The position numbers and the translations under genes were made by a program. A stretch of 39,538 nt of DNA from Methylophilaceae bacterium (GTDB lineage: Bacteria; Pseudomonadota; Gammaproteobacteria; Burkholderiales; Methylophilaceae). The stretch lies in assembly GCA_014190615.1 (NCBI GenBank), contig BJGS01000003.1, positions 1-39,538 of the forward strand. Reading direction: 5' to 3'. The notes under the pieces are model-generated. The model made no database searches, had not been told where the DNA came from, and saw only the letters and a list, made by a program, of their open reading frames with translations. Below are positions 20,133-26,261 of the stretch, piece by piece (position 1 is the stretch's first letter; every line of letters begins with the position of its first letter).

Positions 20133-20981
20133 TTTTAAGCTAATATTTGATGCGATAGCTCCACTTAAAATAATCATCAAAGCACCAATGATATCTTCCA
20201 TTCTCATCGTTTCATTAAAATACATAAGACTGATGAGACTCGAAAAAACTATAGTTAAATAAGATAGAGCGCCTATGGTAAGAGTGTTACCAAGCCTATA
20301 TGCCCTTGTCATTGCAATTTGAGCAATAGTTGCTGATAAGCCAAGCGGTATTAATATCCAAATATCATTGATTGTAATTTTTTGATGATGAGTAAAGCCA
20401 ATCCATAATCCTGAAGCAATTGTAGATACGAGCGTAAAATAAAAAACTGTTCGCCAATCAGGCTCATTTAGTTTGCCTAATTGTATGACATGAATGTAAG
20501 CTAAAGCCGCACCGATCCCTGATACCAAGCCTACTAAACCAGCAAACCAACTCTGCCATTCTCCATGAGGATCTAAGATGAGCAGAGCGCCAATAAATCC
20601 AATAATGGTACATAGAAAAATAGATTTTTTTATTTTTTGGTGGGAAATAAAAGGCAAGAAAAACCCAAGAAAAATAGGCGATGTGTAATTTAGTGTCATT
20701 GCAGAACCTAAGTTGAGATGAGCTATTGCATAAAAGAAAAAAGCTAAAGATAAGAATCCTACAACACCGCGATCAATTTGTTTTCTAAGATGGGGTGTTT
20801 TGATTTCTTTTTGGCTAGCCACAATATAAATCAAAAGAAAGAGCAAGCTGATAAATGAGCGGTAAAACACAAGCTCTATGCTAGAGAAATGGTTAGCACC
20901 AAGCTTAACAAAAGAACCCATGAGTGAAAAAAAGAAGGTAGCTACGACGATCCATAACATCCCTTTTTTTTGATCTGTCAT
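20118..20981 (-). CDS. EamA-family (drug/metabolite transporter superfamily) permease
   Basis: An inner-membrane permease with about ten predicted transmembrane helices in two EamA repeats; the first begins near MLWIVVATFFFSLMGSFVKL and the second after AGLVGLVSGIGAALAYIHV. Homologues export amino acids, nucleotide-related metabolites or drugs, but the substrate cannot be read from sequence. The ORF track starts at 21011. I prefer the internal ATG at 20981, because it overlaps the upstream Rieske stop as ATGA and gives MTDQKKGMLW directly before the first helix (287 residues); neither start has a good Shine-Dalgarno. Coupling to the oxygenase gene suggests a shared substrate or product. The 3' end overlaps the response regulator on the opposite strand by 15 bases. 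Confidence 0.88.
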   Translation of the reverse strand: MTDQKKGMLWIVVATFFFSLMGSFVKLGANHFSSIELVFYRSFISLLFLLIYIVASQKEIKTPHLRKQIDRGVVGFLSLAFFFYAIAHLNLGSAMTLNYTSPIFLGFFLPFISHQKIKKSIFLCTIIGFIGALLILDPHGEWQSWFAGLVGLVSGIGAALAYIHVIQLGKLNEPDWRTVFYFTLVSTIASGLWIGFTHHQKITINDIWILIPLGLSATIAQIAMTRAYRLGNTLTIGALSYLTIVFSSLISLMYFNETMRMEDIIGALMIILSGAIASNISLKSSVN

Positions 20982-22096
20982 AGATAGGGAGTCATTTCTG
21001 TTTGATACCATTGATGAAAATGTTTTAAACCATCTTCTAATGGCTCATGATAGGGACCCATATCCTCTTGTTTATTTTTAAACAGCAATCGCCGTCCTTC
21101 GTGCATTTTTTCGCAAATAATTTTATCTTCGACAGCTGTTTCGTTATATGCAGCTTGTTGAGCCGCAATGTAATCTTGATCAAAAAGAATCGTTTCTTCA
21201 GGGTAATAAAATTCAATAATATTTCTGCAATGATCCACATCATCCGGAATGAGGTGCGAAACCACAATGACATTGGGATACCATTCCACCATAAAGAATG
21301 GATAGACCGTGAGCCAGATAGCACCAAATTCAGATTTTGTATCACCGCTATTTGCATTGATTTTAGATTTCCATACATCGTAGATCTCTGAACTTTGAGA
21401 ATGATTTTTTTCTCTAAAAGGTACTTTTTGTATAGATGAAAAAGATTTAAATTCCCAAATAAGATTGTCACAATCAACGACATTATTAAGGCCTGGATGA
21501 AATGCCCAAACATGATAATCCTCGAGATAAACTTCAATAAATGTTTTCCAATTGAAATCATAGTGATCAATTTTGATACTATGTAATTTGTAATTGTCAA
21601 AATTTAGTAGGTTACTTATTTGCTTAAATTCCATAGCATCTTTGATATTCATTTCTGATGGCTTATGCGTTTGCTTAAAAATGAGGTCGTGTATTACTTC
21701 AGTTTGAAATGACTCCAAATTTAAACATGGATTTTCTTTGAAATATGGCGCCCCCTCTAGTTTGCCATCCAAACCGTAAGTCCAACGATGGAGTGGGCAA
21801 ACAATATGCGAAGTTGAGCCTTTATTCTCAAACATAAGCGCTTGCCTATGACGGCAAATATTACTCATCACGTTTATTTTTCCGTTGTTATTCAATAAGA
21901 TAGCGGATTTATCTAAAGCTTCTAAAACCTGGTAATTGCCGTGTTGAGGCACCATTAAGCGATGCCCTAGATACTTTGGGTAATTAGCGAAAATAGTCTT
22001 TTTTTCTATCTCGAAAATATGAGGATCTATGTAGCTATGAACTGGTAGCTGACTGAAAATTTTAGCTTGGGATGGAACTGACTTGAGTGTCAACAT
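20978..22096 (-). CDS. Rieske non-heme iron oxygenase, alpha (catalytic) subunit
   Basis: A 372-residue ring-hydroxylating-type oxygenase subunit. The Rieske [2Fe-2S] ligands are Cys81 and His83 (CRH) and Cys100 and His103 (CPLH). The mononuclear iron site shows EVYLEDYHVWAFHPGL with His195 and His200, and Asp324 in VEDKIICEKMHEG is the likely carboxylate ligand. All cofactor residues are present, so the enzyme should be active. The family covers aromatic dioxygenases as well as demethylases and choline/carnitine monooxygenases; the short overall length and absence of a beta subunit next door fit the homotrimeric alpha-3 type. No ferredoxin or reductase gene is in the window, so the electron donor is unknown. 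It is translationally coupled to an EamA permease. Substrate not determinable. Confidence 0.9.
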   Translation of the reverse strand: MLTLKSVPSQAKIFSQLPVHSYIDPHIFEIEKKTIFANYPKYLGHRLMVPQHGNYQVLEALDKSAILLNNNGKINVMSNICRHRQALMFENKGSTSHIVCPLHRWTYGLDGKLEGAPYFKENPCLNLESFQTEVIHDLIFKQTHKPSEMNIKDAMEFKQISNLLNFDNYKLHSIKIDHYDFNWKTFIEVYLEDYHVWAFHPGLNNVVDCDNLIWEFKSFSSIQKVPFREKNHSQSSEIYDVWKSKINANSGDTKSEFGAIWLTVYPFFMVEWYPNVIVVSHLIPDDVDHCRNIIEFYYPEETILFDQDYIAAQQAAYNETAVEDKIICEKMHEGRRLLFKNKQEDMGPYHEPLEDGLKHFHQWYQTEMTPYL

Positions 22097-22267
22097 ACGT
22101 GATTATTAACTATTGGGAAATGTTTTTTAAAATCTAGGGCAATTTTGCCTTAAATTGGTTTTTTTGCAAACTTAATTTAGCTTTTAAGCCCGCTATCTTG
22201 CTTAAATCAGCTATTTGAGCTACTCTCAACCTTTGAATATTTATGCATTTTTTTAGAGGAGTTTTAG
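22097..22267. promoter_or_regulatory. Divergent intergenic region between the Rieske gene and the small membrane-protein pair
   Basis: 171 bases containing the start signals of two divergent units. At ~22136-22152 a small hairpin is possible (GGGCA, ATTT, TGCCT). The best sigma70-like pair on the plus strand is TTGCTT (22198-22203), 17 bases, TACTCT (22221-22226), a weak match. At the right edge AGAGGAG (22255-22261) is a strong ribosome binding site, six bases before the ATG of the 31-residue ORF. No RNA gene is recognised. Confidence 0.4.
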
Positions 22268-22363
22268 ATGAAAAATCCACTTGATTCAATCTTAGGAACA
22301 ATCATTTCAGGCTTGGTTCTAACATTAATACTTTACGCTTTTCTTAAAAACTTTATTTTGTAG
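22268..22363 (+). CDS. Unlisted 31-residue single-pass membrane peptide
   Basis: An ORF too short for the ORF track: ATG at 22268, stop TAG at 22361-22363, translation MKNPLDSILGTIISGLVLTL followed by ILYAFLKNFIL. It has one of the best Shine-Dalgarno sequences in the window (AGAGGAG, six-base spacer). Its composition is a short polar N-terminus plus one hydrophobic helix of about 20 residues with lysines near both ends. The stop codon is part of the TAGGAG ribosome site of the PuuD-like gene that starts 11 bases later, so the two are almost certainly translated from one message. Tiny single-helix proteins beside multi-span membrane proteins are often accessory subunits (as CydX and KdpF are), and that is my inference here. 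I know of no named family for it. Confidence 0.72.
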   Translation: MKNPLDSILGTIISGLVLTLILYAFLKNFIL

Positions 22364-22374
22364 GAGTTTAAATA

Positions 22375-22866
22375 ATGGAATTTATACCTGGACTTGCTAG
22401 ATGGCTTCACATTGTGGCTGGTATCACATGGATTGGTTTACTTTATTACTTTAATTTAGTGCAGATTCCTGCAATGAAAGATGCAGCAGCAGATGGTTCT
22501 GCAGCTGGTATTTCAAAACATGTAGCACCTAGAGCGCTATTATGGTTTAGATGGGCTGCTGTCGCGACATGGTTAGCAGGTGCAGCACTCCTCCAAGAAG
22601 GCTTCATTAGCGCGTTTACCTTACAAACCGGATACGAAGGTATTGGTATTGGTTCTTGGTTAGGTACTATTATGTTATTTAATGTTTGGGTCTTGATTTG
22701 GCCAAACCAACAAAAGATTTTAGGTATGGTTCAAGCTTCAGATGATGAAAAAGCTAAAGCTCGTAGAGTCGCTTTTCTAGCATCGAGAACCAACTTAGCG
22801 CTTTCACTCCCAATGCTTTTCTTTATGGCAAATGGATGGAGTCACCGCGCATTAATCGGTCTTTAA
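22375..22866 (+). CDS. Small four-helix membrane protein resembling the PuuD (urate hydroxylase) membrane domain
   Basis: A 163-residue inner-membrane protein with about four hydrophobic segments (~8-28, 54-73, 92-110, 138-153). The N-terminal pattern LARWLHIVAGITWIGLLYYFN and later APRALLWFRWAA and NGWSHRALIG resemble the membrane part of PuuD-type proteins and small membrane proteins annotated from it. His12, His49 and His157 are candidate heme or metal ligands. True PuuD is about twice as long and ends in a cytochrome c domain; no CxxCH motif is present here, so urate oxidation should not be assumed. A clear TAGGAG ribosome site lies eight bases before the ATG. It is preceded by the 31-aa peptide and followed by a strong hairpin, making a two-gene transcription unit. 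Function unknown. Confidence 0.75.
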   Translation: MEFIPGLARWLHIVAGITWIGLLYYFNLVQIPAMKDAAADGSAAGISKHVAPRALLWFRWAAVATWLAGAALLQEGFISAFTLQTGYEGIGIGSWLGTIMLFNVWVLIWPNQQKILGMVQASDDEKAKARRVAFLASRTNLALSLPMLFFMANGWSHRALIGL

Positions 22867-22884: not shown

Positions 22885-22908
22885 AAACGGAGGCTTAAGC
22901 CTCCGTTT
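22885..22908. terminator. Perfect palindromic hairpin after the PuuD-like gene
   Basis: AAACGGAGGCTTAAGCCTCC plus GTTT is a perfect 24-base palindrome, giving a 10-bp stem around a TTAA loop, 18 bases after the stop codon. The descending arm ends in TTT and is followed by GTATTTATAA, so the U-tract is short. It is the clearest terminator-like structure in the window and separates the small membrane-protein unit from argD. Its symmetry would let it work on either strand. Confidence 0.75.
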
Positions 22909-22932: not shown

Positions 22933-24111
22933 ATGTCAAAAATGATGGATACCTATGCTAGACAACCTGTAACCTTTGAAAGAGGCGAGGGTGTATGGTT
23001 GTGGGCTAAAGATGGTAAAAAGTATTTAGATGCTCTGTCCGGTGTTGCTGTCAACGGACTAGGGCATGCACATCCGAAATTAGTGAAGACCATTCAAGAG
23101 CAAGTATCAAAACTAATTCATGTATCGAATGTGTACCATATTGCTGAACAAGAAAAATTAGCTGAAAAGCTCACAGCTATTTCTCATATGGACAATGTGT
23201 TTTTTTGTAATTCTGGATGTGAAGCTAATGAGGCGGCTATCAAATTAGCAAGGCTTTTCGGACATCAAAATGGCATTGATACACCAGAAATTATAGTGAT
23301 GGAAAAAGCATTTCATGGCCGAACTATGGCAACCCTATCCGCAACTGGTAATCGAAAATCGCAAGCTGGTTTTGAGCCACTCGTGGGCGGATTTATTCGA
23401 GTCGCTTTTGATGATTTAGAAGCTATTCAGCAGATTGCTTCAAGAAAAAATAATGTGGTTGCAATTCTTTTGGAGCCAATTCAAGGTGAGGGGGGCATTA
23501 ACATCCCAAAGAATATTCAAGATTATCTTAAAGGTTTAAGGGAAATCTGTGATCAACATAATTGGTTATTAATGTTAGATGAAGTGCAAGGTGGTATTGG
23601 CAGAACTGGAAAGTGGTTTGTACATCAACATACTTCCATCAAGCCTGATGTCATGACTCTAGCTAAAGGATTAGGCTCCGGCGTTCCCATTGGCGCTTGT
23701 CTCGCAAAAGGAAAAGCAAGTCATGTCTTTTCGCCAGGTAAGCATGGTTCAACATTTGGAGGTAATCCGCTTGCGACCGCAGCAGGTTTTGCGACGCTTA
23801 ACATTATTGAAGAGGATAAGCTTTGTAGTCATGCATCTAAAATGGGCATATTGATTAATAAAGCTTTTACAAAAGAATTGAAAGATTGTCCTCAAGTTAA
23901 AGCGATCCGTAATTTAGGTCTCATGATTGGCATAGAGTTAGATCAGCCATGCGGCGAATTAACAAAATTAGCTTTAGATGAGGGGCTTCTTATTAATGTG
24001 ACCGCAGATAAAGTGATACGTCTCTTACCGCCTCTTATCATCAAAGAAGAGGAAGCTCTGGAATTAGTCGGGAGATTGTCTCAAGTGATTAAAATTTTTT
24101 TAGTAAAGTAA
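22933..24111 (+). CDS. argD: Acetylornithine aminotransferase
   Basis: A PLP enzyme that transaminates N-acetylglutamate semialdehyde to N-acetylornithine in arginine synthesis, and in many bacteria also acts in lysine synthesis. The 392-residue class III aminotransferase shows NSGCEANEAAIKLAR, FHGRTMATLSATG, LDEVQGGIGRTG with Asp216, and the PLP lysine Lys245 in TLAKGLGSGVPIGA. The short ArgD length and the following argF and argG genes support this over GABA or ornithine-omega aminotransferases. The start at 22933 has no strong ribosome site; Met4 and Met5 are alternatives. First gene after the palindromic terminator, so a promoter is expected in the ~25 bases before it, though none is convincing. 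Spacing to argF is 19 bases. Confidence 0.94.
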   Translation: MSKMMDTYARQPVTFERGEGVWLWAKDGKKYLDALSGVAVNGLGHAHPKLVKTIQEQVSKLIHVSNVYHIAEQEKLAEKLTAISHMDNVFFCNSGCEANEAAIKLARLFGHQNGIDTPEIIVMEKAFHGRTMATLSATGNRKSQAGFEPLVGGFIRVAFDDLEAIQQIASRKNNVVAILLEPIQGEGGINIPKNIQDYLKGLREICDQHNWLLMLDEVQGGIGRTGKWFVHQHTSIKPDVMTLAKGLGSGVPIGACLAKGKASHVFSPGKHGSTFGGNPLATAAGFATLNIIEEDKLCSHASKMGILINKAFTKELKDCPQVKAIRNLGLMIGIELDQPCGELTKLALDEGLLINVTADKVIRLLPPLIIKEEEALELVGRLSQVIKIFLVK

Positions 24112-24130
24112 TATAAGTAGAGTTCATTTT

Positions 24131-25054
24131 ATGAAAACAAAACATTTTTTAAGATTTAACGATCTCAAGCGCGATGAGTTTGAATATATTTTCGCAAGAG
24201 CCAGTTGGATTAAAAAGCAATTTAAAGAATACAAACAGTACTGGCCTCTTGCTGATAGAACTCTAGTCATGATTTTTGAAAAGGCAAGCACAAGAACACG
24301 ACTGTCTTTTGAAGCGGGCATTCAGCAGTTAGGCGGCTCAGCGATTTATTTAAATACTAGAGACTCTCAGTTAGGTAGAGGTGAGCCGGTAGAAGATGCA
24401 GGCCAAGTGATCTCTCGCATGTGCGATCTTGTAATGATCCGAACATTCGAGCAGGACATTATTGATCGATTTGCACAAAACTCTAGAGTGCCCGTGATCA
24501 ATGGATTAACGAATGAATATCATCCATGTCAAATTCTTGCAGATATTTTTACCTACATTGAACATAGAGGTTCGATCCAAGGAAAAACAGTCGCTTGGAT
24601 TGGTGACTCAAACAATGTATGCAATACCTGGCTTCAAGCAGCAGAAGTATTAGATTTTAATGTGCATGTTTCAACACCTAAAGGTTACGAAGTGGAAGTT
24701 GAGCGAGCTGGTCTATATGGCGATAAACATTTCGAAGAGTTTGAAGATCCTATGGATGCTGCAAATGATGCAGATATTGTGACCACAGATGTATGGACAA
24801 GCATGGGATTCGAATCTGAAAATGAAGAGCGCCTAAAAGATTTTGCTGATTGGCAGGTAGATCAAGAAATGATGTCTGTCGCATCATCTAATGCTTTATT
24901 TATGCATTGCTTACCTGCACACCGAGGTGAAGAAGTAACTGCAGAAGTCATTGATGGCCCTCAAAGCGTGGTTTGGGATGAAGCTGAGAATCGTCTTCAT
25001 GTTCAAAAGGCACTGATGGAATACCTATTATTAGGAAAAATGAAAAATGAGTGA
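24131..25054 (+). CDS. argF: Ornithine carbamoyltransferase
   Basis: Forms citrulline from ornithine and carbamoyl phosphate. The 307-residue protein carries the carbamoyl-phosphate site [13 protein letters not shown], the HPCQILAD motif (here [10 protein letters not shown]), DVWTSMGFE in the ornithine-binding SMG loop and the catalytic [11 protein letters not shown]. The SMG loop distinguishes it from aspartate carbamoyltransferase, and the plain DxxxSMG form from N-acetylornithine carbamoyltransferase. It lies between argD and argG and overlaps argG by 8 bases, so the three steps are probably co-transcribed. Typical length and no anomaly. Confidence 0.97.
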
Positions 25055-26261
25055 TATTAAAAAAGTTGTTTTAGCTTACTCTGGTGGATTAGACACGTCT
25101 GTCATTTTAAAGTGGCTTCAAGAAACCTACCAATGTGAAGTGGTAACTTTCACAGCTGATCTAGGACAAGGTGATGAATTAGAGCCAGCAAGAGAGAAAG
25201 CCAAAGCAGCAGGCGTTAAAGAAATTTTTATTGAAGACTTAAGAGAAGAGTTTGTAAGCGATTTCGTATTTCCTATGTTTAGAGCAAATACAGTGTATGA
25301 GGGCGAATATTTACTTGGTACTTCAATTGCAAGACCACTAATTGCTAAACGTTTAATTGAGCTTGCAAAAAAAACGAACGCTGATGCTATTTCTCATGGC
25401 GCGACAGGGAAGGGAAATGATCAAGTACGGTTTGAATTAGGCGCGTATGCACTTAATCCTGATATCAAAATTATTGCACCATGGCGTGAGTGGGATTTAT
25501 TAAGCCGAGAAAAATTACTTCAATATGCTGAGAAAAATAATATTCCAGTTGAAATGAAGCATAAAAAAGGTGGAAGCCCTTACAGTATGGATGCAAACTT
25601 ACTTCATATTTCTTACGAAGGAAGACACCTTGAAAATCCAGGTGCAGAGCCTGAAGAAGACATGTGGCGATGGACAGTTAATCCTGAAAAAGCAACAAAC
25701 GAATCAGAGACTATTGAGATTCAATTCAAAAAAGGCGATCCAGTCAGTTTAAATGGCAAGGCAATGAAATCGCATGAATTATTAGCAGCATTGAACCAAT
25801 TAGGCGGCAAGCATGGCATAGGTAGATTAGATCTTGTTGAAAATCGTTACGTAGGGATGAAATCGAGAGGCTGTTATGAAACGCCAGGCGGCACAATTTT
25901 ATTAAAAGCCCATCGAGCGATTGAGTCTATTACACTCGATCGAGAAGTGGCTCATCTTAAAGATGATTTAATGCCTAGATATGCTTCATTAATTTATAAC
26001 GGTTATTGGTGGAGTCCTGAGAGATTAGCTCTTCAAACGTTCATTGATCATACGCAAATGAATGTAAATGGATGGGTGAAATTAAAACTATACAAGGGTA
26101 ATGTGATGGTGATTGGAAGAGACAGCGTAACCGACTCTCTCTTTGATACAACAATTGCGACTTTTGAAGATGACCAAGGAGCCTATGATCAAAAGGATGC
26201 AGCAGGTTTTATTAAATTAAATGCATTAAGAATGAGAATCGCAGCAAAAATTAAAAAATAA
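25047..26261 (+). CDS. argG: Argininosuccinate synthase
   Basis: Joins citrulline and aspartate using ATP, the penultimate step of arginine synthesis. The 404-residue chain begins with the ATP-pyrophosphatase loop [16 protein letters not shown] (Ser12-Ser18), followed by [15 protein letters not shown] and [14 protein letters not shown], and later by [15 protein letters not shown], all diagnostic of the shorter ArgG subtype common in bacteria. The start overlaps argF by 8 bases. The downstream neighbour ppnP follows after 11 bases and is not an arginine gene. argH, which completes the pathway, is not in the window. Confidence 0.97.

Follow-up and report, generated by a model that had tools for sequence, protein, structure and literature searches.

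A 31-residue membrane microprotein in the Candidatus Methylopumilus lineage as a probable detached helix of a short DUF989 protein

A conserved microprotein gene in front of a PuuD-like gene

The stretch of DNA analyzed here (the window) comprises 39,538 nucleotides (nt) of contig BJGS01000003.1 from a Methylophilaceae bacterium. The original prediction, which was made from the letters of the window alone, had pointed to a 31-codon open reading frame (ORF) in front of a gene for a PuuD-like membrane protein and proposed that its product is a small subunit of a membrane complex. The following features make up the locus:

22255-22261, + strand: AGAGGAG, a Shine-Dalgarno-like sequence of the microprotein ORF, 6 nt 5′ of its ATG (read from the sequence)
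22268-22363, + strand: microprotein ORF, 31 amino acids, a single helix, probably the detached helix 0 of the short PuuD-like protein (from dN/dS, co-occurrence, fusions and profile match)
22362-22366, + strand: AGGAG, ribosome site of the PuuD-like gene, shared in part with the stop codon of the microprotein (read from the sequence)
22375-22866, + strand: short DUF989/PuuD-like four-helix membrane protein, 163 amino acids, no cytochrome c domain (PF06181)

As can be seen, both predicted translation signals are present. AGAGGAG is well spaced before the ORF, which occupies exactly 22268-22363 and, as read from the sequence, encodes MKNPLDSILGTIISGLVLTLILYAFLKNFIL. The TAG stop codon of the microprotein (22361-22363) overlaps the AGGAG element, which is located 8 nt 5′ of the PuuD-like ATG at 22375.

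The two genes were compared in 15 genomes of the genus (Candidatus Methylopumilus, Methylophilaceae). The microprotein frame is never broken, its variable columns are distributed over the three codon positions as 8/2/13, and the mean nonsynonymous (dN) and synonymous (dS) divergences are 0.014 and 0.230, giving a dN/dS of ca. 0.06, which is similar to that of the PuuD-like gene (0.034/0.635). Since such a pattern is far more than chance would leave, 22268-22363 is a real, strongly conserved gene under purifying selection. A broken microprotein frame next to an intact PuuD-like gene, which the original prediction had named as the observation that would speak against it, was seen in no genome examined. 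Among 38 diverse copies, M1, L5 and G15 are invariant, while N3, P4, S7, G10, T11 and L18 are nearly so. The lysines said to flank the helix are present in the Methylopumilus copy but are not general, K2 being missing from many gammaproteobacterial copies.

No family match above the cut-off was obtained for the microprotein in Pfam or NCBIfam; the model of Fst-type toxins (NF033608) was discarded, as its score of 15.5 bits lies below the cut-off of 26. Likewise, no description was found in the literature searched for the sequence motifs of the microprotein and for Methylopumilus small proteins.

The downstream protein matches PF06181 with 74.8 bits (curated cut-off 26.9, E = 1e-20), and no second PF06181 protein was found in the genome. 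PF06181 is also matched by all 63 members of the PuuD-like alignment. Its nearest named relatives include proteins of Ca. Methylopumilus contigs (91-94% protein identity). The gene belongs to the short DUF989 group of Doniselli et al. 2015 (PMC4562309), whose members were described as having four helices, the counterparts of PuuD helices I, II, V and VI, no cytochrome c and a gene context that differs from that of puuD. Many residues of the core are invariant, with H12 as the sole invariant histidine. N27, Q30, R59, Q112, R138 and N140, invariant or nearly so, would form a polar set on the cytosolic side, and H12 and M151 a conserved set on the outer side.

Split and fused forms of the PuuD-like protein

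We picked 110 loci by similarity to the PuuD-like protein alone; the microprotein played no role in the selection. A separate microprotein ORF of 25-47 amino acids is located directly upstream of the PuuD-like gene in 90 of these loci, and in 19 the microprotein is fused in frame to the PuuD-like N-terminus. The one remaining locus is cut by a contig end and begins 19 nt before the PuuD-like gene. Methylophilus methylotrophus, a culturable relative, has the split form. AGGA, GGAG or GAGG, resembling a Shine-Dalgarno sequence, is found no more than 18 nt upstream of the microprotein in 82/90 split loci, and the stop-to-start distance is 1-15 nt in most of the betaproteobacterial ones. Within Methylophilaceae, searches with the PuuD-like protein and with the microprotein detected the identical 61 sampled genomes, none was found with only one of the two, and ca. 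29 genomes have neither (these negatives are partly inferred). Together with the dN/dS value, this co-occurrence bears out the predicted conserved single-helix microprotein coupled to a PuuD-like gene. Second, divergent pairs of the two genes (40-45% identity) are present in two Methylophilaceae genomes.

Fused proteins occur widely among Pseudomonadota. A MNPL.S..GTI..G.VL segment, here called helix 0, opens a single PuuD-like chain of ca. 200 amino acids in marine Methylophilaceae and many Gammaproteobacteria. A helix 0 profile built from split microproteins only (database size set to 5000) was run against 48 fused N-termini and matched 41 of these at E ≤ 10. For 21, the E-value was below 1e-4, and the best was 4.5e-14; nearly all beta- and gammaproteobacterial fused N-termini scored between 4.5e-14 and 2.6e-5. 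An extra N-terminal hydrophobic segment was also present in each of 29 further short DUF989 proteins, a sample drawn from the whole phylum. Judged by the profile, the microprotein is homologous to the N-terminus of its fused PuuD-like relatives. Since the profile matches and the extra segment in 29/29 proteins agree, the short DUF989 protein would be a five-helix protein whose helix 0 is separately encoded here. We assign a probability of about 85% to this reading, i.e., that the microprotein is the detached helix 0 of a five-helix short DUF989 protein encoded as two adjacent genes. The microprotein and the PuuD-like protein very probably act as one split membrane protein.

The PuuD-like protein of the Methylopumilus lineage would then be made from two adjacent, probably translationally coupled genes, with helix 0 inserting N-inside, C-outside and packing against the four-helix core, and the pair would rebuild a structure made elsewhere as one chain of ca. 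200 residues; we infer coupling, orientation and physical association from the sequences. Many fused proteins have lysines and arginines just before helix 0, and such residues are also located in loops I-II and III-IV. By the positive-inside rule, this would place helix 0 N-in/C-out and helix I N-out, the latter in agreement with the published PuuD topology. AlphaFold2 returned one five-helix fold for a natural fusion (predicted local distance difference test score, pLDDT, 90; predicted template modeling score, pTM, 0.84; helix 0 region ca. 90) and for one split pair (pLDDT 92.5, pTM 0.85, helix 0 region 92-94), the chain of which was modeled by reading through its in-frame stop, a modeling device. 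These confident models of fused and read-through chains bear only indirectly on physical association.

The original prediction had likened the microprotein to CydX and KdpF, with which it shares a single helix, a length of about 30-37 residues and a location in the operon of the membrane partner. The notion of an extra peptide on a complete enzyme was not sustained, because in many relatives the PuuD-like protein itself begins with this helix. As a subunit, the microprotein does belong with the PuuD-like protein, although it is a detached part of that protein and not an accessory added to it. We therefore consider it improbable that an accessory or regulatory microprotein of the CydX/KdpF/AcrZ type tunes a complete PuuD-like enzyme and that the fusions are secondary joins. 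Its similar size, single helix and constant adjacency to the target gene would suit such a microprotein, and marine Methylophilaceae probably do show a secondary fusion (see below). However, all 29 short DUF989 proteins of the phylum-wide sample have the extra helix in the same chain, so that helix 0 looks like part of the basic architecture, and no PuuD-like protein without helix 0 was seen among the genomes checked. We know of no lineage in which CydX or KdpF forms the N-terminal part of its partner. Fusion goes unmentioned in the paper on CydX conservation. A CydX-type subunit proper was rejected, as the adjacent gene encodes a DUF989 protein and not a cytochrome bd oxidase.

A detached helix explained by gene fission or fusion, and often left unannotated, has been described as subunit IIa of B-type (ba3) cytochrome c oxidases (PMC3128077). 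The two cases differ in that subunit IIa belongs to another protein family and was seen in crystals, whereas helix 0 is deduced from sequence. In addition, the polarity of subunit IIa is opposite to that of the helix it replaces, while in-frame DUF989 fusions imply the same polarity for helix 0.

A maximum-likelihood tree of the PuuD-like core (quick search, trait columns excluded, unrooted) requires six changes between the split and fused states, at least two of which are forced by strongly supported branches. The three fused loci of marine Methylophilaceae are nested among split ones, and a fusion probably accounts for at least one change in this group. The tree is unrooted; the wide distribution of fused proteins suggests that the split state is the younger one. 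Split pairs from Eremiobacterota and Nitrospira bins (three loci) fall inside proteobacterial clades, which may reflect gene transfer or mis-binned contigs.

Read as a split protein, the pair would be an unusually clean case of a membrane protein that is encoded now by one gene, now by two, and has switched repeatedly within a single tree. The short DUF989 proteins, published as four-helix proteins, here have one more helix at the N-terminus, either within the chain or as a separate partner, which would correct their layout from four helices to five. A conserved microprotein for which we found neither a family model nor a description is added to many genomes, and the name “urate hydroxylase PuuD” is probably wrong where it is given to proteins of such genomes.

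Possible functions of the pair

That the PuuD-like protein is a urate oxidase like PuuD, with the microprotein as a subunit of a urate-oxidizing complex, is very improbable. In its favor are PF06181 membership, homology to PuuD helices I, II, V and VI with conserved cytosolic loops, and the automatic annotation of distant relatives under names like “urate hydroxylase PuuD”; a plasmid collection contained two distant matches so named and no others. PuuD, however, has eight helices, a cytochrome c domain and a purine catabolism setting, none of which is found with the 163-residue protein, which also has no CXXCH, and the gene context of short DUF989 genes is unlike that of puuD (Doniselli et al. 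2015, PMC4562309). The next two enzymes of the urate pathway, HIU hydrolase (PF00576) and OHCU decarboxylase (PF09349), were found in none of the 16 genus genomes, nine of which are near complete. Since both these enzymes and the cytochrome c domain are missing, urate oxidation by the pair is unlikely. Hardly credible is a leader peptide, whose translation would merely control the PuuD-like gene and whose product would have no role, for although the ORF is short, lies 5′ of the operon and has its stop in the next ribosome site, its amino acid sequence itself is conserved (the dN/dS of 0.06 and the invariant residues above) and becomes part of the protein in fused species.

We tentatively propose, as a possibility with somewhat less than even chances, that the split membrane protein is a redox protein. 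The pair would keep the cytosol-facing polar pocket of PuuD (the six residues listed above), and the invariant H12 in the outer leaflet would be a possible haem ligand. Since the cytochrome c domain of PuuD is missing, electrons would be passed to a separate partner. In hhalign comparisons, the core aligned weakly with HemJ (PF03653; E = 9e-4, probability 23%) and DUF2269 (PF10027; E = 2e-3, probability 14%), both below the membership threshold, and 5/63 PuuD-like members weakly matched UPF0093 at E ≤ 1 (best 0.026). Like the PuuD-like core, HemJ and DUF2269 proteins are small four-helix proteins with a conserved histidine early in helix I. Methylopumilus, however, encodes its own HemJ besides the PuuD-like protein, and a role as a stand-in for a missing HemJ was rejected, as HemJ is present in this genome and in 59/61 relatives. 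A sequence search of solved structures gave nothing convincing. The highest probability among the PDB matches listed, that of the formate dehydrogenase cytochrome b subunit (1kqf_C; 0.60, E = 3), was unusable as evidence.

Several points weigh against our interpretation. Helix 0 of alphaproteobacterial fusions is only marginally recognized by the split-microprotein profile, and a PDB fold search gave no match at E ≤ 0.001. The neighborhood, dominated by arginine biosynthesis, gives no pointer to redox chemistry, and the haem and redox part draws solely on weak remote similarity and a residue pattern.

More speculative still, and in our view rather doubtful, is that the pair constitutes an unrecognized two-gene membrane oxidoreductase, widespread in Beta- and Gammaproteobacteria, with a DUF989 core that would bind haem and need a separately encoded helix 0. 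Even a streamlined methylotroph genome of 1.2 Mb would have kept this enzyme, for a role close to arginine biosynthesis.

HemJ and DUF2269 also match each other by hhalign (E = 3.6e-7, 93% probability), and the DUF2269 Pfam model picks up three HemJ genes (E = 2e-4 to 8e-4), which suggests that the two share a superfamily. At four loci of the alphaproteobacterial type, a membrane-anchored protein of ca. 93-103 amino acids with two CXXCH motifs is encoded near the PuuD-like gene, upstream and on the opposite strand; it could stand in for the missing cytochrome c.

Genes and signals around the pair

The pair is bordered by the following features:

20978-22096, − strand: Rieske-type ring-hydroxylating oxygenase, 372 amino acids, divergent neighbor (family searches)
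22885-22908, + strand: perfect 24-nt palindrome, AAACGGAGGCTTAAGCCTCCGTTT, after the PuuD-like stop (sequence and conservation)
22933-26261, + strand: argD-like (22933-24111), argF-like (24131-25054) and argG-like (25047-26261) ORFs, names from sequence reading and not from a family search

The original prediction had placed the pair between a divergent promoter region and a perfect hairpin. The hairpin is indeed perfect and the upstream gene divergent, but the promoter-like matches (3) barely differ in number from the 2.7 expected from shuffles. The palindrome is not listed by a terminator scan. In 30 Methylophilaceae loci, however, the stem is conserved through compensatory changes that affect both of its sides, so that the palindrome is probably a terminator.

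For the Rieske-type protein, the nearest NCBIfam model is glycine betaine monooxygenase GbcA, at 84.5 bits against a cut-off of 670. Neighbors homologous to this gene were present in 13 of 80 loci, and argD-, argF- and argG-like neighbors in 50, 43 and 33 of the 80, respectively. In other lineages, the neighbors are genes that were read from their sequences as grxD, pyrC and nadC. Apparent Fe/Mn superoxide dismutase genes, noticed by eye, adjoin short DUF989 genes at five loci from several unrelated lineages.
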